From: a virus
DNA length: 57,086 nucleotides
IMG/VR virus record: IMGVR_UViG_3300030328_001660
Coordinates: 1-57,086 of that record
Strand: one strand, 5' to 3'
The notes beneath the pieces were generated by a model, which saw only the letters and a program-made list of their open reading frames with translations, did no database searches and was not told where the DNA came from. This document shows positions 11,283-34,540 of this stretch, piece after piece. Both the position numbers and the translations under genes were made by a program. Positions within the stretch are counted from its first letter, which is position 1; every line of letters begins with the position of its first letter.

Positions 11283-11658
11283 TTACTTAAGGGAAAACAA
11301 TCAGATTCAAGGTCCAATTGAAGAGCCAGTACAAACCAGTACGGCAACCGTTGTAGAATCTCAAATGGTTTTTGGAGAATGGAATGCTAATAACCCAGCA
11401 ATGGATTACATGTATAGGGCTATCTCTGATACGTTAAAACAGGGAGCTGGGCTTGTTCAAGACATTATGCAAATTAATCATAAGAAGGCAATGCTAAAAA
11501 GAGAACTAGACTTAGCAGAAGCAAAGAAAGCGTACAAAACAACAATGGGAACGATGGGGGTTATGAATGAGATGTATAATGATCCGGGATATCTTGCTAC
11601 CTTTCGTGATATGATGTTCCAACTCGGGGGTTGGCATAGCGCGGGAGGCAACCGATAA
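11266..11658 (+). CDS. Small ejection-module protein
   Basis: 130 residues; ATG 11266 with AAGGAG inside the end of the previous gene, and a TAATG overlap with the next. Residues about 50-100 look like a continuous charged helix (IMQINHKKAMLKRELDLAEAKKAYKT). No family recognised. Tight coupling on both sides suggests co-expression with its large neighbours. Confidence 0.7.
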   Translation: MVDIPNYLRENNQIQGPIEEPVQTSTATVVESQMVFGEWNANNPAMDYMYRAISDTLKQGAGLVQDIMQINHKKAMLKRELDLAEAKKAYKTTMGTMGVMNEMYNDPGYLATFRDMMFQLGGWHSAGGNR

Positions 11659-14600
11659 TGTCTAGTAATACACCTCGTTATGAAAACATCGACTCTTTTG
11701 ATGAGGGGTTTGATCCCCGAAGAAACTACGTAAGAAACAAATTATATGGGATGTATCGAGCAGAGAAAGATTCAGAAATTTATTACCCGCAACTTAACAA
11801 GATGGATGATGAAGAGCTTCTTTACCGATTTAATAACTTTGGAAGAAGTAAAGAAGAACAAAAAGAATCAGAAGAACTTTACTATCTTATGAGAGATGTA
11901 GCCTATCCCGCTGACAGCGGTGGCTTCGGTGGTGGTGGTGGTGAAAGCTACGGCATCAACACCGGAATGGATTTCCCAGCAGTGTATCCGGGAGAAAATC
12001 CTTTATTTAAAACTAGGGATGTTACTAGAACTCAACCCAAGATAGGGATTACTCCAGCCCAACAATATTTAGCTGTTGAGCCGAATCTTCCTTGGTGGCT
12101 AAGAAGTTACGGACTTTCGCCAGAAGGTATTGTTTCGCAACAAGCAGTTGCAGAAATAGATCTAATGGAAGAAGAGGAAGAGGATACCATCAAACAAAGA
12201 TACGCCGTTTATAGGGTTTGGCAAAACAAAGCAATGGCTCGAAAAACAATAGGATATGGTTTCGGCGGGATGTTACCTTACAACCCACAAGACTTTAAAC
12301 CACTACTAGCACAAATGGCTATCGCTTCTCAAACAGACGAACTAGACCCAAGTCAGGACATAATTTTAGCTGAGGTGGAAGAACATTCTGATCTGTATGA
12401 TAGGATGAGCGAGGAAATTAATAACCTTATTGTCGAAAACCCAGACACAGAACCTATTGCTATTGTCGGTTCGGTTTTAAAGAAATTTGCTAATGAAGAC
12501 AGAGATCGTTACGTTACCGGGGCTGAGCTAATGGATATGACAGAGGAAGAGATTGCAGCAGTAGGATCCCAACGGCCTTTAGTTTTTCCAAAGGTAGCTC
12601 CGTGGGTTACACAGGATAAAAGAAGTTATCTGTTTACTGCAATGACAGAATTTTCTAAAAAATTAGAAGCAAAGGCAGAACAGTTAAGTGCTGCCGCAGC
12701 AGAAAATACCAGAGAGGACCCTAACACTAATTCATTAGTAGAGGAAGTAAAGGCTGAAGCTTTAATGTGCGTAACCGAAACTTGCAAGGAACTAGAAGGG
12801 AAAGCAGCTGACTTTATTGACGACCTAAGAGAATCGGGATCCTATTCGGAAGAAGAGCTAAGAGTTATCGCGTCTGGTATGGTTGGTGCAGAAGTCACAC
12901 CAACGGAAAAGGGAAAAGAAAAAGACATGATTCCTATACTTGAGAGCTACGCAAGGGATAATTCTGCAATAACTGAAGATGATAATATTCTTACTATGGC
13001 TTTAAAGATGAAGAATATGGGAGATATCTTTAACTACCTTATTAAGCAATCCAAAGAAGGGATTGATATTCAGGCTGATTATGCCGAGACATTGAGAATC
13101 TTAAAAGAGAACGGAGTTCTGTTGCCCTTTGATCCTCAAGTAAGTCCCACCGAAATCTTAGAAAGAAGCCAAAGGCTATTCCACAACAATGTTATTATTC
13201 CTTTTACGGAGAGAAGAAATGCTTTTAGTACACCTGAAGGTAGATATCAGTTAGCTGCTGTCAATGTATTTAGGAGGTTTGTAGATCCTTCTATCAGTGA
13301 TTACTCTGATGTTTTAAGATACGTACAGAGTGCCGTATACGATACAGATCCAAACATGACCTTAAACAGAAAGATGGCAATTATAGAATTATATTCAAAC
13401 GGTAGATCAGCATTCAAAGCTTCTCTTAACGCAAGTAATGGAAGCTCTGCATTAAACAGTGCTCTTAGCGCAATAAACGCACCTCCGGGAGTTAACGCTA
13501 GGAAGCCGAGCCAGACACCTTTTGCTTTTACAGATTTTCCACCGTCTACCGCAAGACAGGACCCTCAAACATGGAACGAATCGGTACAAAATACTTACCA
13601 AAGATGGGTAGAAACTATTTCGGCAAGATCTTACGGACATATTAAGGATCCAAAAGAAAGAGCTAATATGGTTTCGGGACTTAAGAGTGTGATGCGAATT
13701 GAACAAAACGAACAAGGATTAGGAAGAATAGTTGTTGATTGGGAGTCTTCCGATCCCAGCACTCTAATACCTATTGCACAAACTTTACTTGATGAAATGG
13801 ACCAGTACAATGTTTCAGAAGTCCCCTCTATCTTAAGAGGACTAGGTATGCAAGTAACAGAAGGCTTGCAGTTAATGGGCGGTGAGATTGGAGAAAACGA
13901 GACAGAAAAAATGAAGAAGGTTTATAGGTCTTTATCTATACTAGGAATGATTTATAATCCTAAAAATGCTACTAAGGCGAAGGGTGTTAAAAGCATGATG
14001 GGCTGGAATCAGGGCGATTACTCTGCTTATCAAACAGCTATTACAGCCCTAAGAGCTGACAGCTCTGTTTTTTCTAATCTAGGAAACTTTTATGAGGCAG
14101 CTAGCGATAAAGAAAGAGCAGGGTTTTTGTCTGAGTTTGCAAGAGATTTTAATACGAGAAGTAGGGTTATTTTTGAAGCTTTAGCAAATAGAGCATCAGG
14201 GTCTGCTATTGGTTTGTCAGACACTAGGAGAGGACTGCTTACTAATACTATACAAACAAACAACTTTTTGTCTTCTGTATTTCCTTTAATGTCTTTTGGC
14301 AAATCTAGACATGGGCAAAGAACCTTACAGGATATGGGCGAAAAAAGTAGTGGCACTTCTTATGATGCCTTTAATGCGGAAGTTGAAGTAGGAGATGTAA
14401 AAGTAAGTGGATGGGATAAGATTCGAGCTACCCTACAAGAAGTAATGCCGGGAACACAGTTTAAAACTTTTGAATCATCTGATTTTACTAACCTTGCTAA
14501 TGAGCTTGGTGGTATCTTAGGATTAAATAAGGCAGACATGAAAACTCTAAGAGAAAGAGTAATAGAAGACGGTGAAGATTGGATTCCTTGGAACGACTCT

Positions 14601-15596
14601 GTAGAAAAAGGTAAACAAGAAGAAGTAATTAGTTATCTTCTTATACGAGAACTTTTAAATAATAACCAAATCGCAAACCAAATGCACACCTATGTACAAA
14701 ACAGGCATATCTATAGTAGTGAAGTTCCTGTAAACGCCGAAGAGTTTATGTCAGTAATTGGTTACTTTTATAAAAATAGTGGCGTAAACTTAAGCGGAGC
14801 TATTTCCTTAACCGATACTGCTGGAGTCTTTTCTTACAGTAGTCCTACTTTAGATAAAGACTTTGTTCATATGTTAGGAGAACAAGATGTTCTTGACGGG
14901 AATTTAGACGGAACTTATGAAACAGCTATGTCAGAAGCTTTAGCTCTTATTCCGTTTAAGAAAAGCCCACAAATGACAACACATCTAAAATCAACATATA
15001 TGGTAGCAGAGGGGACAGAAGCAAACGAACTTAAAGTAGAAATCGCCAAAGGTTTAGGACTAACAATTGACCAATATAATTCGCTTGTTGAAGAAACTAT
15101 AGACGCTTTAGATGAAGTATATGTCCCAAAACGTACCGCAAGCAGTCCGACCGCAGGTTCATTATCAAGAAGTTTTTTACAAAGTAAGCTAGATGGCGGG
15201 GCAACAAGAATTCAAACAGAAGGCGCATCTTTAGTAAGTACTCATTTAAAAATTATAGAGCTTATCCTTAGACAAGCTGAGGATATGGATGGTGATGACA
15301 AGGTATTAAACTTTAGTGGGCTAACATTAGATATGTTAAAAAGAAAAGAAGAGTTTAGGACTATTGGGGGTCTGTTGACATCTACATCTCTTAGTTATCC
15401 AGACTTAACACCAAGACTTTTATCCCCAACTCCTCAAACAATGTCTATAAGAACAGATGCTGGTCGAAAGCATCTTCTTGTGTTTGATATTGCGGGGTTA
15501 AAATCATCAGACGAAGCATCAATAGAAGTGGGAGGTGTTGCGCCAAGGCGTGTATCTCTACCCTTCATTACCTTTAGGGGAGCCAACCATAAATGA
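11658..15596 (+). CDS. Large internal virion / ejection protein (gp15 position)
   Basis: 1,312 residues; GGAGG lies upstream of ATG 11658. Highly charged and predominantly helical, with a Gly-rich stretch near residues 92-100 (GGFGGGGGE). It has no Walker motif, metal-binding motif or membrane segment that I can see. Its position between the gp14-like gene and the giant gp16-position gene corresponds to T7 gp15 (747 residues), but it is far longer and no sequence match is visible. Its stop overlaps the next start (ATGA). Confidence 0.7.
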   Translation: MSSNTPRYENIDSFDEGFDPRRNYVRNKLYGMYRAEKDSEIYYPQLNKMDDEELLYRFNNFGRSKEEQKESEELYYLMRDVAYPADSGGFGGGGGESYGINTGMDFPAVYPGENPLFKTRDVTRTQPKIGITPAQQYLAVEPNLPWWLRSYGLSPEGIVSQQAVAEIDLMEEEEEDTIKQRYAVYRVWQNKAMARKTIGYGFGGMLPYNPQDFKPLLAQMAIASQTDELDPSQDIILAEVEEHSDLYDRMSEEINNLIVENPDTEPIAIVGSVLKKFANEDRDRYVTGAELMDMTEEEIAAVGSQRPLVFPKVAPWVTQDKRSYLFTAMTEFSKKLEAKAEQLSAAAAENTREDPNTNSLVEEVKAEALMCVTETCKELEGKAADFIDDLRESGSYSEEELRVIASGMVGAEVTPTEKGKEKDMIPILESYARDNSAITEDDNILTMALKMKNMGDIFNYLIKQSKEGIDIQADYAETLRILKENGVLLPFDPQVSPTEILERSQRLFHNNVIIPFTERRNAFSTPEGRYQLAAVNVFRRFVDPSISDYSDVLRYVQSAVYDTDPNMTLNRKMAIIELYSNGRSAFKASLNASNGSSALNSALSAINAPPGVNARKPSQTPFAFTDFPPSTARQDPQTWNESVQNTYQRWVETISARSYGHIKDPKERANMVSGLKSVMRIEQNEQGLGRIVVDWESSDPSTLIPIAQTLLDEMDQYNVSEVPSILRGLGMQVTEGLQLMGGEIGENETEKMKKVYRSLSILGMIYNPKNATKAKGVKSMMGWNQGDYSAYQTAITALRADSSVFSNLGNFYEAASDKERAGFLSEFARDFNTRSRVIFEALANRASGSAIGLSDTRRGLLTNTIQTNNFLSSVFPLMSFGKSRHGQRTLQDMGEKSSGTSYDAFNAEVEVGDVKVSGWDKIRATLQEVMPGTQFKTFESSDFTNLANELGGILGLNKADMKTLRERVIEDGEDWIPWNDSVEKGKQEEVISYLLIRELLNNNQIANQMHTYVQNRHIYSSEVPVNAEEFMSVIGYFYKNSGVNLSGAISLTDTAGVFSYSSPTLDKDFVHMLGEQDVLDGNLDGTYETAMSEALALIPFKKSPQMTTHLKSTYMVAEGTEANELKVEIAKGLGLTIDQYNSLVEETIDALDEVYVPKRTASSPTAGSLSRSFLQSKLDGGATRIQTEGASLVSTHLKIIELILRQAEDMDGDDKVLNFSGLTLDMLKRKEEFRTIGGLLTSTSLSYPDLTPRLLSPTPQTMSIRTDAGRKHLLVFDIAGLKSSDEASIEVGGVAPRRVSLPFITFRGANHK

Positions 15597-18500
15597 CCAG
15601 TCAAAACTTAAACGCATGGGCTACCAGTGATTTACCTTTTTACTTTCGTGACAATGAAGAACAGAATCAAGGCATTAGAGAATGGAGTGAGTTTACAGAA
15701 GGATTTAAAAAACTATCAGAACCTTCGATTGTCGGTGGAAGAACTCCTGACATTAGTGATTCTTGGTCTATTGATTTAGAAACTGGTGAGTTAGTTCGTG
15801 GTGTTTATGATATTACGACAGCTATGACACACGGGTCTTACTCTTCATACTATGGCGGTATGTTCGAGGATAACCAAGCTCGAAGCAAGTACTCAGCAAG
15901 AATGCAATTGGGTGCTTACAAGCATGACCTCTATAAAGGTACGGCTCTTGAGTTTAGTGAGAAGGACAAGAAACTTTTAAATCACTATGCAAGTAAAAGT
16001 GCTTGGAACTTGTCTAGATTAGGCGACCCTTTTCGTGATGAACAAGAAGAAGCAGGCGTAGACCTTTGGGATGTACCCGTATTTACAAACTTTAATGAAA
16101 CTCCCGATAACATTATGGGAAGAGACGCTCCAGAAGGATGGGATCCTCAGCAAGCGTTAGAGGTTTTAAAATTAAAAGACCCTCAAATGTATTCGGTGTA
16201 CCTAAATACTCTAGGCGGCAGAGAAAACGTAGACGACTTACTCTCCGAAACCAAAAACCCCTACGACTTTTTCTATACACTAACAAACGAAATGCAGCAA
16301 ATCGCTTATATGCGAACTCAAATGGAGTGGTGGAAAACTGCTTCAGCGAGTGAAGTCGTAACTGAATACGTATATAACTTTGTTGTCGAAGGCATTGCTA
16401 ACGATCCAGACTTTGCTGCTTCTATGGGAATTAGTTTAGGAATTAGTGCAGGTACGGCTGGAGTTGGGGCAATACCCTCTTTTATTGTTGCAGCAGCAGC
16501 CAAAGTACTAAAAACTGGAATTAATTTTGCAAAGTTCTTAAAGTGGACGGCAAGATTACAGAATAGAATGAATCAACTCCAAAGATATCTGCCAGAAAAC
16601 TTGGGTCCGACTTTGGTAAATAAAATTCCACAAGTAAAAAGCTTTGCGCAACACGGTAAGTTTGCCCAATTCTCAGTAAATAGACTAGGAGATGTAGGTG
16701 AAGGTTTAATTACTGGTGGCTTAGCTGAAATTGGAAACCAATACAGACAATTAGATGCCGGTACTTTAGATTCATTTAGTGTTACTAGAGTTATTAACGA
16801 GTCTTTAATTGAAGCGGCCTTTTCTCCTGCGGTAAACCCTGCAATCGGCGGACTATACAAGGGTATAGGGGCATTAGGTTCTTTAGGATCCAATCAAATT
16901 GCCGTGCCTTTAGCTAATGCTCTACTAGGTGAAAACTCTGTAAAGGGGATCTCTAATTTTGTAGGGAAAATAGGAAGGACTGCAAACCCGCAAGCATTAG
17001 CAGAGCGTCTTGAGCTGATTGAAATTAATACTGAGATTAGAGCAGAGCTTGAAGCATTGACTTTAGAAGGAACTGATATTGAAACGGGAGTCGAAGAAGA
17101 TACAGACCCCACTAGTCCTACCGGAGTCATTAGTGCTGTTATTGCCTCGTTGTTTGACGAAACAGGAATGAGTAAGGCAGAATTCCTAACGTCAGTAAAA
17201 GAAATCCTTACTGATTTTAGGGAACAAGCAGACAACCCAACAGATGCTCGAAGACCTAAGGAAGGCAAAGAACAAGAGGTTGTACTAGCCGAACTCGCAC
17301 AAGAGCTTGTAAACAGAAACCAAGAAGTAATCCTAGAAAGAAACGACGGGAATAAGCAAGTCTTTGCCAATATCCTAGGATGGACCAAGCAGCACATTAC
17401 TCTTGCTAAGCAAGCTGCTAAAAAAGGAATGAGCTATAAAGACTATGTAAATCAAATTATTGAAAGGGGAGAGGAATTTAACTTAGTTCCTAATGATATT
17501 AGAAAGGCTGTTGTAGAAAAATTAGGTGAGAAATTTAAAGACGCAACTACAGAAGAAAGGCTGGAGGTTGCTAAAGAAATTCTACAAGAAAGAATTCAAG
17601 AACAGAAGAAAGCAATTACCGAGTTTAATCAAAGAACCGATGAAGGAGAAGCTGAAGCCGATGCAAGAGATGAGGATATAGACGGAATCGATCCCGATCC
17701 AGCAGACCCTGCTCCAGCAGATCCAGAGCCTAAGCCCGTAGACCCAGAGAAACGAAAGGGAGATGATGACCCTAAGGATCCCGGACTTGAAGGAGGAGAA
17801 GGTGGTCCTCCAGCAAGAAAGAGATCAGAAGATCCCTTAGTTAGGCGAGAGGAACTAAAACGAAAATTAGAAAAACAGAAGAGAGAACTAGAGGCTTTAA
17901 AAAAGAAACTAGAAGATAGACTAAAGAGCGATCCAGATCCTAAAATTAAGGAGAAAGTAGAAAAGGTTCGGAGTTTAGTTCTATCTGTAGAGAAGCAACT
18001 TGAGACAGTAACAGTAGATTTAAATCAAATGCTAGCCGACCACGCTATTGATAACGCTGAACTTAAGCCTTTAGTAAATACCCTGATAGATCTTCGAGAT
18101 AGGTTACACAAGATTTCAGAAGATTTGAAAGTTGACCAAGAAGATGACAAGGGAGTAATCTGGTCTTATTTTAGGGCTAAGAGATTTGAAGCGTTGCTTA
18201 CAAAATTAAACAGGCTCTATATCGAGGAAGGAGAGGGTGGAAATGTTAAGTCAGCTGATATAAGTCCTGAACTAAGACAAACGCTTGAAGATATTAAAAA
18301 AGAATTAAAGGATGATAATTCAAAAACAGCAGATAGAATGAAGCAATACATAAACGGAGTATTAGCGGGTACAGAAAAACAAATGACTCCTAAGACGATC
18401 TCACAATACCTTGTTAGGGGTGGTCAGGTAATTAAAAGTCACATGGAGCGGCTAGAAAAAACTGACCTATACAAAGAGAACAGTGCTCTAGTTAAAGAGT

Positions 18501-21500
18501 TTAACAAAACCCTAAGGGACTATAAGAGAGTTATCGCTAATATCCAAAGGGGAGAAACCCTAAACGATATTCAGAAATTCTTCGCTATTCAATTACAACA
18601 AACTGGTGCTAGAGCACAACGAAAAGAAACGGAAGTATTTGAAGCCAAAGAAAAGCTGTTTAATGATATGATTGGAGATAAGGAAGCAGAAGGAGAAACG
18701 GTTACGGTAAACGAACTTCTTCCTGTTCTTCACCAGTTCTCTGAGTGGCGACAAAATAAAGAAGCAGTTGTAGAAGAAAACCCTGAAAAAGGTGAAAAAG
18801 AATACACAATAGAAGAAGCAAAAGAAATCTTTGGTAAGGAAGCCGCAGCCGTAAAACAAAAGATTAAAACTCTATCCATCGGAAAACTACAGAACCTTAG
18901 AGCGGGCGGGCGGTACTCTTACATTCGTGGAGATTACGAACACAACTACAATGATTCTGATGTATTGGGAACATCTTACGACCCCGAGTATGTACTAGAG
19001 AGATCAAACGAAGACGGTAAAGAACTTGATCCTGAAACTGTAGACGATACAGCAGAGATGATAGTTGAGCCAGAAGGTCTTGACGATATGAAACAAGCTG
19101 ACCTTAACAAGTTTATTGACGATGTAATGGGAGGCGAAGGAGGAAAGGGCGGAAAAAACAAGGATAAGGTTGCCCGCATTAGAGCGTGGATTGCTAATAA
19201 AAACGCCGAAGTTAAACCAAAAAGAACAGGACCAGCTTACCTTCCTTCACCAACTGTAGTTTACGAGACTCTAGATGCGGCGGATGGTTCAAGTTTATTT
19301 GAGGATTCTTTCGATGTACGAAATGCAGAAGCTCGGGAAGTTGGATTTGAAGACTATTTTCACGCTGTAAATTCCTATAATCTATATGTTATTGGGATTC
19401 ACAAAAATAAAGAAAACTTTGCAAAGGCTGCAAAAGGAATAGGAAGAAAGGAAATAAAGGAAGCGTGGGATGCACGAAGCAAACTATCGGAAAAACAAAG
19501 AGACGCAGCAAAGGCACAAAAAATAAACTTAGTAAAGCAAATGAAGAAGGAACTAAGAACTGAAGATATTGTCTTTACTAGGTCTTTGGATAAGGACGTA
19601 GAAGCTTGGATACAATTTGAAGCAGCCTTAGACATGTTAGCTACTAAGGCAGATCCTACCAAAGGAATTGCAGCTTGGAGAATTAACCAAGCAATGCCAG
19701 CTTACCTTAGAGATTACGTAGGGCTTAAACCCTATGTTGTGTTTGGTAGAGAGAATGTATTAGGGAAGTCACACTCCGCTCTAATGCCTTCTGATGTTGT
19801 AGATGTAGATATGGCATCTGCTACTGACCGACAAGTTGTCCAACATACCTTAAGGTATAGACCGGAAGAACTTTTAAATATCGCAAGAGCTTGGAAAGAA
19901 AGAGGAGTAGCTAAAATCGACGGATGGCAAAAGCAAGAACTTGCCAATGTTTTAGATACCCTAGAAGCTCAAGCAATGGATGAGTCCAACCCTAATTCAG
20001 CAGCAAACCTTTACTATACAATAGCCTTTATTGAGAGACTAGAGAGTGCGAGTGAACTTGTAAATAGAGAGCTTTTTAAAATGAGACAGGAAAAGAGAGA
20101 CGGCGGTTGGATTATGGAAGTAGACGGGGATACAGGGTTTCCTATTAAATTCACAAAGGATGAGAGCACTTGGATTGGCGATGCACGCGGACACATAAGA
20201 GATAGAATAAACTCTCTAATCGAAAGAAGGCAAACCAGATCCTTAAGGAACATCGCTGAAAAATTCGGCTTGACTCTAGAAGAACAACGAAATGAATTCC
20301 ATTTCCCAACCTATGTAATAACAGACGCAGAAGGTAATATATCTGATAATGTAGCTGACGTTATTATTGAGAGTATGAGAACTGAACTAGAAGGACTACA
20401 TGAAGGCCAACTATCTTTAACTAAGTTAGGTAACGGAGAATACGGATACGGCTCTTCTAAAAACGTAGGCTATGCTGTTGTAGATTTCTTAAGTGATAAG
20501 GAAATGCCTTCTATCCAAAGTCTTACGGCTATTACAGATAAGGATGGAAAGGTAATTCCAGCACAAGCAGACGAAGATACTGAAATTAAGGGACAGCCTA
20601 CAAATGTTCGACTTCCTATAGAAGGGGAAGTAAACCACGCTATGCCTATTCCAGCAATGAAGCTGGCAGCTTTAGTATCTAACTATAAAGCAAGAGAACG
20701 AATGAGGTTTATTCTGGGTAAGGAAAAATTTACTCCAAAGGAAAGAGAAGCCTATAAGGCGTGGGTAGAAGCTAAGTGGTCAGACATTAAATCTGAACTC
20801 AAGGATCCAGATCCTACAGGAGAGCAAGTTCCTTTTGCTGTTATTCCTCAGATTGTAGGTAACAGGTTGCACGAACAAGTAATGAAGAGATCTGAAGTGA
20901 AGGCATTTATTATGGAACTTCTTTTAGATGTGCCTCGAAATGCAGAAGGATTTATTCACGATCAGGTTACTAGAAGGCGTGGAAGTCGTTTGATGTTTAA
21001 TGAAGGAATGGAAGAAGGTATAGTCCAAGTAGTCGATAGAGATGGTAATATTGTTGATAGGGACATTAAAAACCTAGACAAAGATCAAGGCTTAATGGTT
21101 GACCTTAGTCACGGAGATCACATTCTAGTACCTTTAGGAAGAATAGGAGAAATCCTTGCAATTGAGGCAATGGGTCCAATGTTTAAGGGACTAACAAGTG
21201 TCGCTGTTGAAGAGGTAATGAAACTTAGAGATAAGAGAGAAGCTGACGGTACGGGAACATCTATAAATGATTTCCTTTCTAATGATAACTGGAGTGACCG
21301 AGTTGCTAGTGGCGTGTTTGAGATGAAACTGATGTCATTAGCAAATGACCCTAACGCTACTATTGAGGTTGACGGAAAGAAGATGACCGCCGAAGAAATT
21401 ATGAATGGAATTTTAGATGGGACTTTCAAGAGAAAGGAAAAGACTGAGCTTGACTTTTATATGCGAGGTGCGATTACTGCCGGTAGAAACAATACAGACA

Positions 21501-24500
21501 CCTCGACTCAGATTGGAAAAATCTTTGAGCTTATAAAAAAGCGAGATATTAAAACAATGGATGATATCGTTGCTTTAGAAGAGCTAGGTAAAACAGATGA
21601 AGATGCGGCTAAGGATTCACAAGAAATCGCGAAACTTAGAGGAGTTTTTAAAGTACCTATTCTAAGAAGAATTTACGGCGGCGGTCAAAAGAACTTTGAC
21701 GAAGAATTTGCGGAGGGAGGAAAGGGCTATGATGCGATGAAAGAATCAGGCATTGAGCCTAGCACTGAAAATATTGCTGCACTTAAGAAGATTCTATTTT
21801 CTAAGATAGGGGTTAGTGCCTCTAAATCTTACCTCATTGACGTAGCATTAGGAGTTGACGAAAAAACTAAAAAACTTGTACACTCTTATTTAAGGATTGA
21901 ACAGGAAAGGGACAAGCCCTTGTTAGAGGCTTGGAAAAACTTAATGGATATGGACAATAAAACATTAAGTAAGGAATTAGAAAACTCCATAACTCATATT
22001 GATTTGCTAGATAAAAAGCTGAGGCAACTATATAGGTTAGATAAATCGACAATGACATTTGAAGAATGGAAAAAAGTCAAGGGATACGACGAGAGGTTTG
22101 AGGCTGCTAAAAAATTCTTAACAGAAAAACATGAAGCGGGAGATGCAATCCATCCCGGCACTGATAACTACGCTGAGTTTAAAAGAATGGTTTCCGGCGT
22201 TGGCGGTAAACTAACGGCAGAATCTATTGGTTACTTAAGGGCATTAAACATCCTTAACTCTCAAGAATATAGAATAAATGCGGAGAGAATTAAAAACGCA
22301 GCGGAACTCTTGGGGTTAAAAGATTTTGATATAACAGATTATTTAGGGTTTGAGGCACACGCTGTATATCAAGTTATGTTACCCAGTGGAAACTCAGGAA
22401 GAACCTATAACACAAGAAACATGGGATTAGATACCTTAGGGATTTCTTTAGAAAGAGTAGCGAGAGTTTCTCAGTATACACATGAGGGCATTACTTACGA
22501 AAGCTTCTCTGACTTCCTTGAATCTGGCGCAGCACCTACAGATAAGGCAGTGCTCACCCAGCTATTTGAGGATTTCTTAGCCCAAGATAGCGACAATGCA
22601 GATGCCTTGGGGGCCTATGATCTTGCTGATCCTTTCTTAAGAGATCAAAGAGATGCGGGCAAGACAGACGAAGAGTTAGAACAAATCGTAGAAGACTTAA
22701 TGATTAAGCAAGAAATGCTTCTTTGGTCAAGCTACGATAGGCCGCCATCAAGTGTATTCCCTGACTATACAGTAGAAGATTCGGATGTTGGTTTGTTAGG
22801 AAATATCCTAAGGGAATGGTATTCTCACTCTGAAGGAAGGCATGAATCCTTACGAGATGAGATGAGAAGAGAAATGGACCATTGGAATAGGGAAGGAGAA
22901 AATAGTAAGTTCCTTGCTCTTAAAAATAAATCCGGTGGTCTAGTCAATAAGAAGGTTGTGGACGCTTCTAATGGTGCGTACCGATATACGCCATATCACG
23001 TTTCTGAAAACAACCCTACGTCAGTAATGCTTCATACAGCAGGCCAAAGGGGACCACTGGCAATGCGACCGAAGTATAAGGAATCTCAATACCATGATGT
23101 AGGTTTCTTCGGTCTACAAAAGCTTCATATCCAAGAGAGATTAGAAAGACTGCTTGGGCCTTTACACACTATTAGGCGAAACCAAAGAGAACTATCTGAC
23201 GAAGAAGTAATGGTAGGAGGAACTAATATTGGTGGGTTCTCTCCTTGGAACGCGGCTGAACTACCGCAAGTTATTCCAACTCTCCCAGCAAACATGGCTG
23301 CTGAAGTAGGAACTCCTGCTGGAGTAAGGGCAGCACAACTATATTACGAAACTCATATGTGGGCCACAGAAAGAGGATTACAAGAGCAGTTAGAAGCGGA
23401 CCCAGAAAACTTTGCAAGGTTCTACATTATTAGGGAGATTGAAAGGACAAGGCAAGACATTCACAGAAGAGTTAGAGAGGATGATGTTATAGCCGACTCT
23501 GATGTTACTGCCCATAGAAACGCTTGGGTAAGTGGACTGCATGATGTTGTCCGATACTCTCGGGATATTAAAAACCCAGAACCAAGAAGAAAGCTAAAGA
23601 TGTTCCCTGAAGGAGAACAATTCGCTGCTGTTAATCCTATTGCTGACGACTTAACTTATTATGAAAACTTAACCAGCGTCCTTTCAGAAGATAACCCAGA
23701 AGGTATCTTACTTAGGCGTAGTATCTTAGATGGTGAATTTAAGATGGGGCAAGCTCCTGACTTTAACTTAGTAATTGACTTGGATGAAGGTGCGGGGGAA
23801 ATGAATCTCTTTGAGTTTAGTGACTTAACCGAAGATGCGTGGGCAGTCCAGAACGCAGACTTTAATAAATTCTTAGCTGCCCAACTATTTACTGAAGCCA
23901 TTGGTAATGCCCTTAAAAACTATAAAGACGGTAAGTATGCAAAGTATGCTATGAGACCAGATGACTGGGAAACAGAAATTGGTGAAGGACTAACAACAGC
24001 AGAAGCTATAGCAGAAAGACAAGAGATACTACAAATGGCAAGGGAGTACGTAGCAGCTCTTCCTTCCTATACTTTGGAAGTAGGTATAGAAGAAGTACTG
24101 TACGATGACGCTAAGGGTCGAGGAAAGAAAACCAATAAATATAGGTTAGCTTTTAAACGACCTTCAGGAGAAGGGCAGGCACAAAAGGGTGTATACGGGG
24201 CTGCCGTAGGTTTTGGCATGACATTTATGACCTCTCAAAAGATTAGCGCAACAAGTGGTAAGTTCCTTCTAGGAGAAGGCGAAGCTTTAAAAATGTTTAG
24301 TATATTAGAGAACGCTCAAACAATGGAAGGGATTAACCTAAGCAATTGGCTTAACAAGGGATTAGGAATTAAAGTAGCTGCGAACGGTCAAGTAGTAAGA
24401 GCTGTACCTCTGCACGAACGTGTAGCAGACGCTTTAGGATACAGTGCTAGACCTATTAGGGATGCAGCCCTTACTAATTCTGAATCTATTAGCAGGGCTT

Positions 24501-27500
24501 CTGCTGGAGAAACAGGCTTAAGTGTAGTGCAAATGATCACGGCTGGTGAAGGGTTAAGTGTAGAAGGACGGGCAGTAACTGTTGTAGATTTAGATTACTA
24601 CGCAAGGGATGGGTCTGGTTGGGACGACGGAGACTTAGGAACAGCAACTTTTGCTTGGCTTGAGTCTTATATTAGCCCAGTTAAGAAACTAATTCGTATG
24701 ATTGATCAATCAGGGATTAATCCTGCTAGTCCTTTGACAGCAGTCAGAGGAGAACTTGTAGCATTAATAGCTGCAACAAGAGAAGGAGATGCAGCCTCGG
24801 GAATTGTTTTAAGATTGCTAGCACTTAAATTAGAAAATCCATTTTTAAGGTTAGACGGAGCAGGGCGAAAGGTAGAGATTTTCTTTAGTGAGAAAGATAG
24901 AAACGCAGAGAACTGGGGTGAATTACTACAAAGAGCAGACAGTTTAAGCACTAGTATTAAAACACAGATTTCAGACGAAGGGGTTCGCCTCAATAATGAT
25001 TTACACTATGCTGCTATGCAGTTTATCATGCTTGGAAAGACAGATATAAACAGCACGGATTTTGATACCTTAGTAGAGAACTTTAGAGAATTTTTAGGGA
25101 AGGACTTAGAGTTGACCGGGAGAAATGTAGAAGAAGAATTACAAGGAGCCTTAAGAGGGGCTGTTCTACATGGTAAAAGGGTTCCAATTACAAGCTCCGA
25201 TTCTATCTTTGCACAGGATTGGGATGAAGGTGACTTCGATTTAATGGCTGATTTTGCTTCTAACTACACAGCAGAAACACCTATTGAAAGATTGCCAGAA
25301 CAATTCAGGCCCCTATTTAAGGGACCCATATTGCAAATCGATAACCTAGTTGCAGACGGACGAATTACAAGACAAGAAGCTGTAACTATAAAGGCTATGC
25401 TATATAGAGCTTACTCTTTAAATCCAGAAATCATTCTTGGATTAACATTTGAGTCTTTGACAGAATCCATTAAGGGAGGAGCTGAAGCAGAACGAGCTGG
25501 GGATCAGTTTACAATTAGAATAGGCTCTAACTTTAGATCAGTTGCTAAGGACAATCCCCTTACAGCGATTGAAATATTTGCTCACGAAATTGCACATATC
25601 GCAAGGTTAAAATTTATTGCAGATAATTCCAACGAGTTTAACGAGCTAATGGGCCTTTATCAAAGCAAAGAAGGAAAGGTAGTACTAAAAAAAGCTGTAC
25701 TAGCTTGGCACGGGGGTGTATGGACTAAGGAAGCAAGAACAGAGTTTGAAAAATATATAGATGACCCTACTGGAGAAGAATTTATTGCTGGGTTTACGTC
25801 TTTATACTTACTTGCAGATGTAGCTCCAGTAATTAGAGACCTAAACAAAAAAGAATTAACAATCTTTGGAAAAACAGTAGCTGCTGTAAAGAGAATCTTT
25901 AGTTATATTTCTACTACTATGGGTAGGTTACAGATTGCTTTCCATACAGAAGACCCAGAGTTTAATAAGGCTATAAGAAGAATGTCTTTGAATGTATTTG
26001 GTTATGACTCAGGTACGGATGGGCATAGAAGCCAGTTTGATAGTACTGCCGTATCAGATGCTAGATTTGGTTGGGATGCAAAGCATAAGGGAAGTGTCTT
26101 ACCAAAGGTAGATGTTGAAAAGGATTTAGAAATACTAAGGCTTAATCAGAGGTACGTTGAACTGAAAGAAAGCGAAAGTAGAACAAGTGACGAAGAAACA
26201 GAATTAAATAACATTATAAATACTATGACTGAAGATCCTTATGCAAGTAGCGCGACAGGATTAACTTCGCATGGAGGAGAAGGCGGTACATTTACTAGAT
26301 GGGAATACATCACTACTTTAGACACAGTAAAAGAAAAATACGCTCCTCAGGCTAAGACTAGATCTGAATTAGAAGAGCCTAGTAGAAATCCAACGGGATC
26401 GGGAATTATTGATTTTGGTATGTTGATGGCTGAGGGTACATCCCAAGAAAAAGCAGCAGCTTTTGTTTACCTAAACGAAGCACTACTAAATACTTACGGA
26501 GAACCAGTTAGTAGAGGGCTAGGAGCAGTGGCAAACAAAATGCTTTCTAAAGGGGCAAGAGATAAGGTTATTGCAGCTTTAATTGGCAACACAGGACATG
26601 AATCAACATGGAACTCTAACTTCTTGATTCCCATAATGCTAACTACTCTCATTGATGATAACATCGCTACAGTTTCAGGATCGTTTACTAATCCAAGAGG
26701 AACTCCTTCTGTTAGAAAAATCCTAGGAGAACTAGAAAACTTTTCGGGTCAAATGAGAAGTAATAAGACAACAATAGTTAAACTGATACAAAACAAAATG
26801 ACATCCTTGTGGAAAGGAGAAGGGGTCGCTGGAAAAAAAGCTAACTTGATTTTAGAAACATTAAATATACAAGTTATTGAAAGCGTTTCACAAAGAAATG
26901 AAACTGAAGGAAAATACGAATTTGATTTATCAGAAAAAGCCATTGGTGTTGCTTTAGACGAAGACGTTAAAAAAGAAATAGCTGAACAGTTGCATGAGAT
27001 GTCTGAAGTATTTGTACAGATGGCTTTAAGAAATGTAACAAACGGTAAGGCTATTGGAGAATTTGGAGAAGGATTTACTAGCGTAGTTCCTTATAGACTA
27101 GGAACATCGCTGGATATTGAAAACATTTCCGGTGAAGCAGTCTTTGTAGATACAATGAAAGGTCTTATTTCCCAAAGACTTTTAACAAAACTAGACGAAA
27201 GTGGAATGGTTGAAGGAACTATTTTACTAGCAAACGGAACACTACCTCACTTAACAAATGACAACCAAGCTTTTAATGACCTTAAAAAACTTAAAGATAA
27301 CTTCCCATCAATATATGGATTCCTTTTAGAAAGTGCTGTAGACCAATTGGGAGGAGATAGAGATAGAGAGTTAAGGGTAAGATCTTTAGATAACAGACTA
27401 CAGAGTAAAGAATTCGATGCTTTAATTAAAATACGACATTCTTCTCTAAAGTTAATGAATCAACTAACTAAAGGTAATATTACTTTACATACTTTATTTA

Positions 27501-29887
27501 AAGATTCAGGAACTAGAAGAGAACGACAACGATTTGAAACTGAATACAAGCATATGGTTAGTGCAGCCAAAGAAAGCAGCGACAATGTAGCCAATAGATT
27601 AGAAGGGTTAACCGTTAAGAGCTACGAGGTTTCTCCCAATATAAAGGCAAGATCAACTGTTAAAGCAGGAAGAATTGCAAAATCTTTAGGAGTACCTAGA
27701 GATGCCATTACACATATATTTAGAAACTTCTTAGAACGGTCTGCGGTAGGAGCATACTACCCTAACGATAACTTTGCACTTCCAGAAGTAAATGAAACTT
27801 TGCAAGCTAATGAGCAAATGAAAAAATACTTTGTCGTAGATATTACAAGTTTGTCTGAAAACGCAAGGCACGGTCTATATAACGAAACTGCCGAAAAACT
27901 TATGATGAGAGAATTTGGAGCACACGCTACTGTTTCGCAAGTTTTAGATCTAGTAGAGTCTGTAAATACATCTTCATATGGTATTCTAGACGCAGAAGGA
28001 AATAGTTCTAGGGAGCAGACTGAAGCAATTAAGACAAGTGTAGAGGTCTTAAGAAATAAACATGACACTATTAGAAAGATAAGAAACACTAACGAACTTA
28101 AATCTACCAATATACTTGACAGTGCTGTTCCAGAGTATGGTAACGCAATTACTCGAATATCATTTGGTGGCAACTTGTTTATGGCAACCACTATTGTAGA
28201 AAATGGATTTGCTGCACTAGACGAATTACTTGGAAGAGGGAACATCACTGGTTTTGTAAGAAGTGCCTTTGCACCATTCAGTGCTATTACAAACAGAAAG
28301 GAAAGGGCTAGAGTTCTAAAGGACCACGCCTACCTTATTGATTCCATGACCCAAGGATTTTTACCTGAATTTGAAAAACCCTTTGGAGGAAGAGAAGACT
28401 CTGGGCCATTGAAATTCCTTAAAGGGTGGGGATCACAACAGATGCGATTAGCTAAGTGGCAGTTAAAAAACATTTCTGCTGCCCGTGCTGTTAACCTAAG
28501 ATCCTACATCCAATCTACACTGGAGCTAGATAAGAAGGGGAATCGACCTCTTATTCGTTTGGCTGAAATTTTAGAAAACCCCAGTGACTTTAGTGAGGTT
28601 AGTTTTAACAGGGAAATAAGTCAGTTACCAATGGATAAACAAGAGGCCGCATTAAAGGAGGCTCTTCGAGTAGCGGGCATTAGTAGTTACGCAAATCTTG
28701 GAATTATTACCTACCTTATGAAAGCAGGACTTCTTCGGACTGATAAGCTAAACATGCTTTTAGAAATGATGCCAGAAAACGGACGGTACAGTCCCTTTGA
28801 AATGAGTCACGAACTGTTCTCTAGTCACTCAGAAACTACAGATACTAAAGACTACAACGATAAGCTAGACATAATTACGGGTCTAAAAGAAGCTGAAAGA
28901 TCCTACATCGAAGAGGCTATCCTAGCTCCAAATGCTTTTGATACTCAAACTCAAGAACTAGGAACAGCCGGAGCATTGTTTGAGATCTATCGAAGATATC
29001 CAGTTCTTTTTGTTTCTCAACAGCTTATTAGAAAGTCAAGTAGGGCTAGTCCCATGAGGGCAGGAATGGGTCTAGCTAGTCTCCTCCTTCTAGATATCAT
29101 GTATATGGTAGCTTTGCAGCTAGCTGCGGGTGTAACAATGGACGAGATTATTGAAGAGTTTGAACAAAACGGATTTGCTAAAACAACAAAACTGATAGCC
29201 AGAACACCACTAATGGGACGTTATTTAGCAATGATTGCTCCGATAGCATCTTTAGGAGCTAAAGCTATTAGCGAGGGAAAAATGTTCGGTGCATTTGACT
29301 TGCAAAGAGAACTAGCAGCAAATTCAGGGTTTATTCCTTTAGCTGCTTTAGGACAAGGTTTAGGGGCTGGCATTACCGGAATACAAACTACAGGGGCTTT
29401 GATGGGCTTAAACGACATGCCAGTAGGTCAAGACATCTTAAACGCAACAAGAGTTATTCCGGGAGCAGACGCAGCTTTAAGACTTAGCGTATACTCTCTG
29501 GCCGGAGACGGAATTGAGAGAAAGGATAGGAGATCTTCCAGTAGAAGTACTAGATCAGGAGGAGTTGGAACTAATCAGGTAAGGAATGTTCACTACGGAA
29601 TGAGGCAAGACGAGGCACTAACCACTTGGGAGTACTATGCCCGTGACATGTATAAGGAAGTATTAGGAGAAGGTGTTGTCCCACAAGCAATTCAAGAATA
29701 CCACTCACAGCTTCAGCTTATGAATAGCTTAGAAAACACAATGGCCCCGCCCGCCGCACAAACACCCGCGCCGCCCGAACCCGCGCAGCCGGAGATCACT
29801 ACCTCTATTTCCAAACCCGAGAATATCGTAGAAGCAATCATAGACAGAAAGCCTGAGAAGGCACCGGAGGGTTTACTGGACTCATAG
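15593..29887 (+). CDS. Giant 4,764-residue ejection-module protein with a zinc metallopeptidase motif (gp16 position)
   Basis: Uninterrupted 14.3-kb frame. Near residues 273-307 is a Gly/Ala hydrophobic segment (SMGISLGISAGTAGVG), followed by a Gly-rich patch of the kind seen in ejected proteins. Residues about 697-750 are an acidic Pro/Asp linker, then a Lys/Glu coiled coil to about 815. HEIAH at 3331-3335 with Glu3395/Glu3396 in GEEFIAGF downstream fits a gluzincin-type zinc peptidase. Near the C-terminus are three hydrophobic or Gly/Ala-rich segments (about 4490-4513, 4540-4560, 4578-4607) and a GC-rich Pro/Ala tail. T7 gp16 has 1,318 residues. The rest is unrecognised; it may be a multi-domain 'polyvalent' protein delivered with the DNA. 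No lysozyme or polymerase motif was found. Confidence 0.85.
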   Translation: MTSQNLNAWATSDLPFYFRDNEEQNQGIREWSEFTEGFKKLSEPSIVGGRTPDISDSWSIDLETGELVRGVYDITTAMTHGSYSSYYGGMFEDNQARSKYSARMQLGAYKHDLYKGTALEFSEKDKKLLNHYASKSAWNLSRLGDPFRDEQEEAGVDLWDVPVFTNFNETPDNIMGRDAPEGWDPQQALEVLKLKDPQMYSVYLNTLGGRENVDDLLSETKNPYDFFYTLTNEMQQIAYMRTQMEWWKTASASEVVTEYVYNFVVEGIANDPDFAASMGISLGISAGTAGVGAIPSFIVAAAAKVLKTGINFAKFLKWTARLQNRMNQLQRYLPENLGPTLVNKIPQVKSFAQHGKFAQFSVNRLGDVGEGLITGGLAEIGNQYRQLDAGTLDSFSVTRVINESLIEAAFSPAVNPAIGGLYKGIGALGSLGSNQIAVPLANALLGENSVKGISNFVGKIGRTANPQALAERLELIEINTEIRAELEALTLEGTDIETGVEEDTDPTSPTGVISAVIASLFDETGMSKAEFLTSVKEILTDFREQADNPTDARRPKEGKEQEVVLAELAQELVNRNQEVILERNDGNKQVFANILGWTKQHITLAKQAAKKGMSYKDYVNQIIERGEEFNLVPNDIRKAVVEKLGEKFKDATTEERLEVAKEILQERIQEQKKAITEFNQRTDEGEAEADARDEDIDGIDPDPADPAPADPEPKPVDPEKRKGDDDPKDPGLEGGEGGPPARKRSEDPLVRREELKRKLEKQKRELEALKKKLEDRLKSDPDPKIKEKVEKVRSLVLSVEKQLETVTVDLNQMLADHAIDNAELKPLVNTLIDLRDRLHKISEDLKVDQEDDKGVIWSYFRAKRFEALLTKLNRLYIEEGEGGNVKSADISPELRQTLEDIKKELKDDNSKTADRMKQYINGVLAGTEKQMTPKTISQYLVRGGQVIKSHMERLEKTDLYKENSALVKEFNKTLRDYKRVIANIQRGETLNDIQKFFAIQLQQTGARAQRKETEVFEAKEKLFNDMIGDKEAEGETVTVNELLPVLHQFSEWRQNKEAVVEENPEKGEKEYTIEEAKEIFGKEAAAVKQKIKTLSIGKLQNLRAGGRYSYIRGDYEHNYNDSDVLGTSYDPEYVLERSNEDGKELDPETVDDTAEMIVEPEGLDDMKQADLNKFIDDVMGGEGGKGGKNKDKVARIRAWIANKNAEVKPKRTGPAYLPSPTVVYETLDAADGSSLFEDSFDVRNAEAREVGFEDYFHAVNSYNLYVIGIHKNKENFAKAAKGIGRKEIKEAWDARSKLSEKQRDAAKAQKINLVKQMKKELRTEDIVFTRSLDKDVEAWIQFEAALDMLATKADPTKGIAAWRINQAMPAYLRDYVGLKPYVVFGRENVLGKSHSALMPSDVVDVDMASATDRQVVQHTLRYRPEELLNIARAWKERGVAKIDGWQKQELANVLDTLEAQAMDESNPNSAANLYYTIAFIERLESASELVNRELFKMRQEKRDGGWIMEVDGDTGFPIKFTKDESTWIGDARGHIRDRINSLIERRQTRSLRNIAEKFGLTLEEQRNEFHFPTYVITDAEGNISDNVADVIIESMRTELEGLHEGQLSLTKLGNGEYGYGSSKNVGYAVVDFLSDKEMPSIQSLTAITDKDGKVIPAQADEDTEIKGQPTNVRLPIEGEVNHAMPIPAMKLAALVSNYKARERMRFILGKEKFTPKEREAYKAWVEAKWSDIKSELKDPDPTGEQVPFAVIPQIVGNRLHEQVMKRSEVKAFIMELLLDVPRNAEGFIHDQVTRRRGSRLMFNEGMEEGIVQVVDRDGNIVDRDIKNLDKDQGLMVDLSHGDHILVPLGRIGEILAIEAMGPMFKGLTSVAVEEVMKLRDKREADGTGTSINDFLSNDNWSDRVASGVFEMKLMSLANDPNATIEVDGKKMTAEEIMNGILDGTFKRKEKTELDFYMRGAITAGRNNTDTSTQIGKIFELIKKRDIKTMDDIVALEELGKTDEDAAKDSQEIAKLRGVFKVPILRRIYGGGQKNFDEEFAEGGKGYDAMKESGIEPSTENIAALKKILFSKIGVSASKSYLIDVALGVDEKTKKLVHSYLRIEQERDKPLLEAWKNLMDMDNKTLSKELENSITHIDLLDKKLRQLYRLDKSTMTFEEWKKVKGYDERFEAAKKFLTEKHEAGDAIHPGTDNYAEFKRMVSGVGGKLTAESIGYLRALNILNSQEYRINAERIKNAAELLGLKDFDITDYLGFEAHAVYQVMLPSGNSGRTYNTRNMGLDTLGISLERVARVSQYTHEGITYESFSDFLESGAAPTDKAVLTQLFEDFLAQDSDNADALGAYDLADPFLRDQRDAGKTDEELEQIVEDLMIKQEMLLWSSYDRPPSSVFPDYTVEDSDVGLLGNILREWYSHSEGRHESLRDEMRREMDHWNREGENSKFLALKNKSGGLVNKKVVDASNGAYRYTPYHVSENNPTSVMLHTAGQRGPLAMRPKYKESQYHDVGFFGLQKLHIQERLERLLGPLHTIRRNQRELSDEEVMVGGTNIGGFSPWNAAELPQVIPTLPANMAAEVGTPAGVRAAQLYYETHMWATERGLQEQLEADPENFARFYIIREIERTRQDIHRRVREDDVIADSDVTAHRNAWVSGLHDVVRYSRDIKNPEPRRKLKMFPEGEQFAAVNPIADDLTYYENLTSVLSEDNPEGILLRRSILDGEFKMGQAPDFNLVIDLDEGAGEMNLFEFSDLTEDAWAVQNADFNKFLAAQLFTEAIGNALKNYKDGKYAKYAMRPDDWETEIGEGLTTAEAIAERQEILQMAREYVAALPSYTLEVGIEEVLYDDAKGRGKKTNKYRLAFKRPSGEGQAQKGVYGAAVGFGMTFMTSQKISATSGKFLLGEGEALKMFSILENAQTMEGINLSNWLNKGLGIKVAANGQVVRAVPLHERVADALGYSARPIRDAALTNSESISRASAGETGLSVVQMITAGEGLSVEGRAVTVVDLDYYARDGSGWDDGDLGTATFAWLESYISPVKKLIRMIDQSGINPASPLTAVRGELVALIAATREGDAASGIVLRLLALKLENPFLRLDGAGRKVEIFFSEKDRNAENWGELLQRADSLSTSIKTQISDEGVRLNNDLHYAAMQFIMLGKTDINSTDFDTLVENFREFLGKDLELTGRNVEEELQGALRGAVLHGKRVPITSSDSIFAQDWDEGDFDLMADFASNYTAETPIERLPEQFRPLFKGPILQIDNLVADGRITRQEAVTIKAMLYRAYSLNPEIILGLTFESLTESIKGGAEAERAGDQFTIRIGSNFRSVAKDNPLTAIEIFAHEIAHIARLKFIADNSNEFNELMGLYQSKEGKVVLKKAVLAWHGGVWTKEARTEFEKYIDDPTGEEFIAGFTSLYLLADVAPVIRDLNKKELTIFGKTVAAVKRIFSYISTTMGRLQIAFHTEDPEFNKAIRRMSLNVFGYDSGTDGHRSQFDSTAVSDARFGWDAKHKGSVLPKVDVEKDLEILRLNQRYVELKESESRTSDEETELNNIINTMTEDPYASSATGLTSHGGEGGTFTRWEYITTLDTVKEKYAPQAKTRSELEEPSRNPTGSGIIDFGMLMAEGTSQEKAAAFVYLNEALLNTYGEPVSRGLGAVANKMLSKGARDKVIAALIGNTGHESTWNSNFLIPIMLTTLIDDNIATVSGSFTNPRGTPSVRKILGELENFSGQMRSNKTTIVKLIQNKMTSLWKGEGVAGKKANLILETLNIQVIESVSQRNETEGKYEFDLSEKAIGVALDEDVKKEIAEQLHEMSEVFVQMALRNVTNGKAIGEFGEGFTSVVPYRLGTSLDIENISGEAVFVDTMKGLISQRLLTKLDESGMVEGTILLANGTLPHLTNDNQAFNDLKKLKDNFPSIYGFLLESAVDQLGGDRDRELRVRSLDNRLQSKEFDALIKIRHSSLKLMNQLTKGNITLHTLFKDSGTRRERQRFETEYKHMVSAAKESSDNVANRLEGLTVKSYEVSPNIKARSTVKAGRIAKSLGVPRDAITHIFRNFLERSAVGAYYPNDNFALPEVNETLQANEQMKKYFVVDITSLSENARHGLYNETAEKLMMREFGAHATVSQVLDLVESVNTSSYGILDAEGNSSREQTEAIKTSVEVLRNKHDTIRKIRNTNELKSTNILDSAVPEYGNAITRISFGGNLFMATTIVENGFAALDELLGRGNITGFVRSAFAPFSAITNRKERARVLKDHAYLIDSMTQGFLPEFEKPFGGREDSGPLKFLKGWGSQQMRLAKWQLKNISAARAVNLRSYIQSTLELDKKGNRPLIRLAEILENPSDFSEVSFNREISQLPMDKQEAALKEALRVAGISSYANLGIITYLMKAGLLRTDKLNMLLEMMPENGRYSPFEMSHELFSSHSETTDTKDYNDKLDIITGLKEAERSYIEEAILAPNAFDTQTQELGTAGALFEIYRRYPVLFVSQQLIRKSSRASPMRAGMGLASLLLLDIMYMVALQLAAGVTMDEIIEEFEQNGFAKTTKLIARTPLMGRYLAMIAPIASLGAKAISEGKMFGAFDLQRELAANSGFIPLAALGQGLGAGITGIQTTGALMGLNDMPVGQDILNATRVIPGADAALRLSVYSLAGDGIERKDRRSSSRSTRSGGVGTNQVRNVHYGMRQDEALTTWEYYARDMYKEVLGEGVVPQAIQEYHSQLQLMNSLENTMAPPAAQTPAPPEPAQPEITTSISKPENIVEAIIDRKPEKAPEGLLDS

Positions 29888-31212: not shown

Positions 31213-31222
31213 CACACACACC

Positions 31223-31253
31223 GCCTCAGCTCCCTTCACTGGGGGCATGAGGC
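31223..31253 (+). other. 12-pair intergenic hairpin
   Basis: 31223-31234 pairs with 31241-31253 around loop TTCACT, with one bulged A at 31247 and one T-G wobble. No T-run follows. Its place between early genes suggests an RNase III-type processing or stabilising element like those in the T7 early region. Confidence 0.55.
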
Positions 31254-31258
31254 ATTCC

Positions 31259-31296
31259 GCAGGACTAACTTCGTCAACGTGACGAACTAACCCTGC
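31259..31296 (+). other. Nested intergenic hairpin
   Basis: Outer stem GCAGG/CCTGC (31259-31263 with 31292-31296) surrounds a perfect 7-pair inner stem TTCGTCA/TGACGAA (31270-31276, 31280-31286) with loop ACG. The two internal-loop sides are nearly the same (ACTAAC and CTAAC). It lies just before the gene at 31320. Confidence 0.5.
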
Positions 31297-31319
31297 TTAC
31301 TCTAATGGAGGGTATCCTT

Positions 31320-31709
31320 ATGGATGCTACCATTACCGTACATCGGCGTAGCATTGGTACGCCGATTGAGTTCAGGACGAACGTCCTGTTCGCGTCTTCT
31401 TTCGAGAAGGCACTTCAGGATGGCAACGGCTCGGAGCTGGAGCAGATGATCGACAAGATCAAGAAGCTTCACGACTACGTGCCGGAGACCGAAGACAGCT
31501 TCGTCTCGGAACCTCATGTTTTCAACACGATTCGTGCTGACGGACATCGATGGTACTGTGTCGCTCGTACCTGCGTCACGGCTCAGGAGTTTGAGAGTCT
31601 CAAGAGGAATCGTCTGGAAATCATGTGGGTTCCCGAACCCTACCAGACCCTCACCGACTGGACCTTGGACATCAAGGAAGCGTCTAGGGATATCAAGCTG
31701 TTCGTCTGA
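31320..31709 (+). CDS. Early-region protein of unknown function
   Basis: 129 residues. The ATG at 31320 is chosen because GGAGG lies at 31308-31312; an in-frame ATG at 31305 overlaps that site. No family recognised. It has mixed charge, is soluble and GC-rich, and is flanked by strong hairpins on both sides, like its neighbours. Confidence 0.7.
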   Translation: MDATITVHRRSIGTPIEFRTNVLFASSFEKALQDGNGSELEQMIDKIKKLHDYVPETEDSFVSEPHVFNTIRADGHRWYCVARTCVTAQEFESLKRNRLEIMWVPEPYQTLTDWTLDIKEASRDIKLFV

Positions 31710-31723
31710 ACTCACACGGAACC

Positions 31724-31753
31724 CCTCACTGTTCCCGAAAGGGAATGGTGAGG
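31724..31753 (+). other. 13-pair hairpin A (GAAA loop), member of a repeated element
   Basis: A perfect 13-pair stem (31724-31736 with 31741-31753) with a GNRA-type GAAA loop, followed by ATTAGG. Nearly the same element recurs 160 bases on (31884-31913), with base changes that keep the pairs. There is no T-run, so processing or stability is likelier than termination. Confidence 0.7.
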
Positions 31754-31762
31754 ATTAGGAGC

Positions 31763-31880
31763 GGCTAGCCTCAAGGACGAGGTTAACCCGCAAAGAGATA
31801 CGTACTCCTCTACGCAAGGATGTGTAGTGTGGTGGAGTGAGTGTGATTCTCCCGGCCTAGTTGTATTGTTGGGCGGGAGC
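31763..31880 (+). other. Structured leader between the 129-aa gene and the second RNA polymerase gene
   Basis: There is no gene here. Several further stems are visible: GCGG...CCGC enclosing CCTC/GAGG (31763-31793), ACTCC/GGAGT enclosing CTACGC/GTGTAG (31805-31838), and CTCCCG/CGGGAG (about 31849-31879). With hairpins A and B this makes a continuous structured leader of about 250 bases. Confidence 0.45.
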
Positions 31881-31883
31881 TAG

Positions 31884-31913
31884 CCTTACTGTTCCTTAAC
31901 AGGAGTAGTGAGG
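31884..31913 (+). other. 13-pair hairpin B (TAAC loop), repeat of hairpin A
   Basis: 31884-31896 pairs with 31901-31913 around TAAC, the loop also used at 100-103 and 33841-33844. Against hairpin A, the closing pair changes from C-G to T-A, and other differences also preserve pairing. A CTAGC/GCTAG hairpin (31921-31935) and TGCCTC/GAGGCA (31954-31968) follow, just before the AAAGG ribosome site of the next gene. Confidence 0.7.
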
Positions 31914-31983
31914 ATTGGGTCTAGCGATGTGCTAGGCTCGGTCACTAATGAGTTGCCTCTTAGAGGCAGAAAGGTTCTTCAAA

Positions 31984-33807: not shown

Positions 33808-33829
33808 TCCTTCTGGCTAACCAACCGAT

Positions 33830-33865
33830 CTCCCCTGCCCTAACGGGTGGGGGAGTTTCTTTCAC
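33830..33865 (+). terminator. Terminator hairpin after the second RNA polymerase gene
   Basis: An 11-pair stem (33830-33840 with 33845-33855) with TAAC loop, followed by TTTCTTTC. Bases 33835-33850 are identical to 94-109 of the terminator after the capsid-position gene. Sharing both core and T-rich tail points to one recognition mode, probably termination of phage transcription. Confidence 0.8.
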
Positions 33866-34523: not shown

Positions 34524-34540
34524 ATTCGCTCTTTCTCTCG

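Follow-up and report, generated by a model that had tools for sequence, protein, structure and literature searches.

A single 4,764-codon gene closing the post-terminase cassette of a T7-like phage probably encodes an ejected protein of the polyvalent kind

The stretch of DNA analyzed here (the window) is the whole of IMG/VR record IMGVR_UViG_3300030328_001660, with a length of 57,086 bases. It carries one giant gene (positions 15593 to 29887, plus strand), whose product is probably a single polyvalent protein of the internal virion (ejection) type, placed as gp16 is in T7 and as gp50, the virion RNA polymerase, is in N4. This explanation is favored by intact frames in 15 members of the family, a cassette shared by 14 genomes, hydrophobic ends, a conserved zincin domain, the presence of ART-PolyVal in relatives and an order of features like that of N4 gp50. 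On the other side, the window copy has no domain above any curated family cut-off, no homology of the cassette partners to the ejection proteins of T7 or N4 could be detected, and relative G004 has lost its HExxH motif. Since N4 packages about four copies of a 3,500-aa protein (PMC12633501), large size is no bar to packaging.

The frame runs open from ATG to stop over 4,764 codons with no internal stop, and the dimensions given in the original prediction held: the product is 3.6 times as long as T7 gp16 (4,764/1,318 aa), and the gene occupies 25% of the window (14,295/57,086 bases). Relatives were retrieved from IMG/VR contigs via TerL and tail tube B, then via the giant's own conserved ends. 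Including the window copy, the family now comprises 15 complete members of 4,559 to 5,825 aa plus four incomplete ones, and internal stops are absent from all of them. The homologues align with the window copy over the full length at 20 to 54% identity, the closest being G001 and G017 (about 50-54%) and the other relatives lying at about 20-30%. As the window is a metagenome contig, separate genes could have been fused by an assembly artefact or a missed frameshift, and the original prediction had named a frameshift or stop splitting the gene as one refutation. The 14 complete homologues, all single-frame and on other contigs, rule this out for the family, and the probability we leave to it is negligible. 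Between the window copy and G001 (53% identical), 4,618 aligned codons differ at frequencies of 0.37, 0.27 and 0.57 at positions 1, 2 and 3, as expected for a protein that is under selection. A tblastn search with each half of the giant against 50,697 phage records gave no match, and contigs of bacterial and archaeal genomes yielded no relatives. The phage with the giant gene is known solely from metagenomes, and many of the source metagenomes of the family are probably deep-ocean viral samples.

The remaining genes of the window include T7-like tail tubes, a tail spike, TerL, a T7-like RNA polymerase, a primase-helicase, a DNA polymerase, an exonuclease and a ribonucleotide reductase. A quick check detected no end repeat, and no portal or capsid gene was recognized in the window. 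Because head genes are absent here, yet present in G001 between the ribonucleotide reductase and tail tube genes (portal phrog_449, scaffold phrog_1052, capsid phrog_267), the window is probably an incomplete T7-like podovirus genome with several kb missing. The G001 contig (82 kb; L082, G001:1-19990) closes with a divergent second copy of the tail tube, spike and TerL genes (50% identical, one stop) and may therefore be a chimeric or over-circular assembly. At 39698-40813, the window has four tRNA genes (Lys-TTT, Met-CAT, Arg-TCT, Leu-TAA).

Upstream of the giant gene, TerL (7787-9484; PHROG E 4e-92) is followed on the same plus strand by four cassette genes, all syntenic in relatives. The first (9562-10263, 233 aa) is a gp14-like candidate with a weak match to a PHROG internal virion protein (E 0.0084), the second (10275-11282, 335 aa) is of unknown function, and the third (11266-11658, 130 aa) is poorly conserved. 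The fourth (11658-15596, 1,312 aa) occupies the gp15/gp51 position and evolves fast (13-18% identity). The order is constant across 14 genomes, namely TerL, proteins of 224-279 aa and 333-391 aa, a variable one of 121-477 aa, one of 1,270-1,787 aa, and the giant. In G001 the penultimate cassette gene appears as two pieces (839 and 596 aa) that overlap, and it was omitted from this comparison. No homology was detected between the cassette partners and N4 gp51/52/53 or T7 gp14/15. The "gp16 position" originally assigned to the giant is therefore a statement on gene order (TerL, a weak gp14-like match, three genes, the giant) and not on homology, and the cassette follows TerL. The start of the giant overlaps cassette gene 4, and the giant always closes the post-TerL cassette. 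This tight placement, together with the hydrophobic ends of the protein, argues against the alternative that the giant is produced during infection without being packaged, which we regard as very improbable.

The hydrophobic ends correspond to the only two transmembrane-type segments of the giant. The first, residues 288-310, is within a conserved N-terminal domain (residues 1-470, 15593-17002), and the second, residues 4490-4517 (29060-29143), is within the C-terminal domain (residues 4111-4764, 27923-29884), the most conserved of all. The N-terminal domain is followed by a variable cargo region (residues 471-1380, 17003-19732), in which the predicted acidic linker was recovered as an Asp/Pro-rich stretch at about residues 685-745. 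Of the predicted coiled coils, what we can support is a charged stretch after this linker that looks coil-like when judged by eye. Further along are a conserved core with putative RNA-polymerase-like motifs (residues 1690-2420, 20660-22852), a conserved region without known relative (residues 2461-3210, 22973-25222) and a zincin-like metallopeptidase domain (residues 3211-3440, 25223-25912), all on the plus strand. Conservation is strongest within residues 50-430, 1,600-2,420, 3,300-3,430 and 4,150-4,640. Profiles of five blocks of the giant searched against PDB sequences gave nothing significant, nor did Foldseek searches with two AlphaFold models. A weak Phage_lysozyme2 match in the window copy, which would place a lysozyme or transglycosylase at residues 3645-3675, was rejected as its catalytic Glu is not conserved.

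The zinc peptidase motif noticed in the original prediction is HEIAH at residues 3331-3335 (25583-25597), accompanied by a distal Glu at E3396 (25778-25780). Of the 15 distinct members covering the site, 14 keep both elements. The exception is G004, which like its near-copy G025 has AEEIGH at this place. Because G004 lacks the first His of HExxH, peptidase activity is not essential in every lineage. In the AlphaFold model of the domain (mean pLDDT 65), the HExxH helix comes after a three-strand sheet and the Glu is carried by a later helix, the layout described for polyvalent MPTases (PMC5512222). Conservation of the motif and Glu and this model thus agree on a zincin-like MPTase layout. Zincin metallopeptidases were among the top Foldseek matches of the model, none of them significant.

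Variation in the family is concentrated in the cargo region, as the part matching window residues 471-1380 measures 707 to 1,915 aa in relatives. The Pfam domain ART-PolyVal is found there in G011 (E 1.1e-26) and G022 (E 2.3e-10), both passing the curated cut-off, and four relatives (G011, G022, G028, G029) have an extra HExxH within the region. No other single finding speaks as strongly for a polyvalent protein. The variable region of G022 (L079:3456-7184) also matches phrog_9880 (E 2e-14), a 2,231-position profile of unknown function that may link the family to other large proteins of phages. The family as a whole thus combines several effector-type domains in one chain (ART-PolyVal in two relatives, a second HExxH in four, the conserved zincin), and the polyvalent claim stands at that level; in the window copy, the zincin alone is recognizable. 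The related suggestion that each part of the giant has a job in the cell is a guess. A purely structural ejection protein could also be considered, that is, an enlarged gp16 forming the part of the DNA conduit that lies in the inner membrane and cytoplasm. The zincin would then be a relic, either inert or used for maturation only, and no part of the protein would act as an effector. Such a protein would fit the gene order and the hydrophobic ends, as well as the lack of another recognizable enzyme in the window copy and the loss of HExxH in G004. We nevertheless find it unlikely given the ART-PolyVal and extra metallopeptidase sites of relatives and the retention of the zincin in nearly all members.

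A narrower reading than the ejected polyvalent protein is that its core is a divergent N4-type virion RNA polymerase, which once injected would transcribe the first genes and help pull in the DNA, with the 619-aa and 818-aa polymerases encoded downstream acting later. We consider this a tentative possibility, with chances somewhat short of even. The candidate motifs are D1902 for motif A (21296-21298, doubtful), R2016-K2020-Y2028 for motif B (21638-21676) and D2343 for motif C (22619-22621, doubtful). R2016-x3-K2020-x7-Y2028 is invariant in all 18 members covering the site and has the spacing of N4 motif B. When the whole-giant profile was scanned with motif profiles built from eight N4-type polymerases, the top motif B match fell at R2016-Y2028 and the top motif C match at D2343, in order and 323 positions apart (281 in N4), a result robust to leave-one-out. 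Pairs of random vRNAP segments did likewise in 6 of 300 trials, and after column shuffling, 2% of giant profiles scored as high as observed for motif B and 18% for motif C. Since the motif was first spotted by eye, these figures are not strict tests. The domain order also follows that of N4 gp50, and N4-type polymerases are reportedly always fused to an MPTase (PMC5512222).

Several results weigh against a polymerase core. The motif A candidate ranks 22nd in the scan, the profile scan found no TxxGR motif in the giant, shuffled profiles match the motif C score rather often, and positive controls score higher on motif B than the giant does. Using hhalign, the core gave P values of 0.003-0.06 with vRNAPs, weaker than the values that genuine single-subunit polymerases gave when compared in this way (7e-5 and 5.8e-5), and the whole profile gave P 0.25, so that similarity to N4 gp50 is not significant. 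The AlphaFold model of the core (mean pLDDT 60) had no fold match and is too poor to judge the fold. The motif C Asp is missing in G004 and its near-copy G025. A search of intergenic DNA for N4-like promoter hairpins (5-bp stem, 3-nt loop) was uninformative, with three found and 1.4 expected. Overall, a polymerase-derived core may be entertained, at rather less than an even chance. The same reserve applies to the wider proposal that single-subunit RNA polymerases packaged in virions have a second lineage, not known before, carried in a polyvalent protein of 4.6-5.8 kaa by T7-like phages with two further single-subunit RNA polymerases (619 and 818 aa), which would amount to an N4-like multi-polymerase program on a T7-like genome.

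These two further enzymes are separate from the giant. Just downstream of the giant gene, an unannotated 619-aa product (31948-33807) without PHROG or Pfam match belongs to a family present in 12 others of the records compared. The family profile has a match to mitochondrial RNA polymerases (E 4e-9) and weak ones to both subunits of N4 RNAPII, and D..SG-like, K-x7-Y and HD sites are recognizable. The second is the T7-like RNA polymerase of 818 aa (42672-45128). Together they give the phage two phage-type RNA polymerases apart from the giant. The 619-aa gene is part of a GC island (31213-35300) with 55-57% G+C, compared to about 40% elsewhere. GC3 reaches 0.68-0.71 in this gene and in a 134-aa ORF (31305-31709), compared to 0.29-0.40. 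Positions 31214-31757 share 93% DNA identity with G017, though protein identity between the giants of these phages is no more than about 50%. Upstream of the 619-aa polymerase gene are two hairpins resembling each other (CCTCACTGTTCCCGAAAGGGAATGGTGAGG type), at 31724-31759 and 31884-31919, the first being identical in G017 (L060:13489). Structured RNAs were also observed downstream of the giant gene, namely a Pistol ribozyme in the window (35655-35711, 37.3 bits) and in G001 (L059:16913-16989, 51.7 bits), a type II hammerhead in G019 (L062:12396-12475) and a manA RNA in G008 (L063:17461-17655).

Returning to the giant as an ejected polyvalent protein, we infer its packaging, ejection, membrane anchoring, proteolysis and action on DNA, and with them its delivery into the host along with the DNA, from the features above. 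A few copies would be packaged with the DNA in the head. The smaller cassette proteins would build a conduit first, and the giant would then exit via the tail and anchor in the inner membrane by the hydrophobic domains at its two termini. The incoming DNA may be acted on by the conserved core together with the C-terminal part, and the zincin domain may cut the giant chain itself or a host protein, freeing or activating parts. The region past the N-terminal domain would serve as an exchangeable cargo bay, holding an ADP-ribosyltransferase and a second metallopeptidase in relatives. The giants form a new family of polyvalent proteins that are probably ejected and exceed the N4 protein in size by about a third, in a T7-like lineage whose giant gene has no detectable relative among sequenced phage records. 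With its exchangeable contents, the cargo bay lets one compare, in natural variants, the injected activities that phages swap. Should the core prove to be a polymerase, virion-packaged single-subunit transcription would exist beyond the N4-like family and its evolution would become directly testable.

Compared with T7, the phage has similar tail tubes, TerL and RNA polymerase, and the giant, like gp16, ends the internal-virion cassette and has hydrophobic segments near both ends. The cassette follows TerL, whereas T7 genes 14-16 precede the tail fibre gene. Six block profiles of the giant matched neither T7 gp16 nor pelagiphage internal virion protein D, and the giant, far longer than gp16, has no N-terminal lysozyme-like transglycosylase of the gp16 type. 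Crassvirales virion RNA polymerases (up to about 6,000 aa, PMC10136315) resemble the giant in size and presumed ejection from a short-tailed phage. Their DxDGD metal-binding motif is absent from the window copy and occurs in two of 19 members, at unrelated places only, and a Crassvirales-type active site was thus rejected.

N4 gp50 begins with an N-terminal domain that binds membranes, followed by a low-complexity linker, the single-subunit RNA polymerase, an HExxH-bearing C1 domain and a C2 domain that is large and helical (PMC12633501). For comparison, eight Schitoviridae virion RNA polymerases of 3,024-3,760 aa were used. The giant shares with gp50 its great size, its last place in the ejection cassette and motif B- and C-like sites. 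It also shares the order of a membrane-type N-terminal domain, low-complexity linker, core, HExxH and large helical C-terminus, as the HExxH at 3331-3335 comes after the core and is followed by a mostly helical model to residue 4110. Unlike gp50, it reaches 4.6-5.8 kaa, has no significant profile match or homologous cassette partners, is encoded with T7-like and not Schitoviridae head and tail genes, and has about 700-750 extra residues before HExxH (988 from motif C, compared to 280 in N4). Like the phage-type polyvalent proteins (Iyer et al., 2017; PMC5512222), the family has a zincin metallopeptidase and domains that are exchanged, with ART-PolyVal in two relatives, and is probably delivered with the DNA, although it is separate and longer and its window copy displays the zincin only. 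The best reading is a giant ejected polyvalent protein, akin in kind to N4 gp50 but encoded on a T7-like genome.
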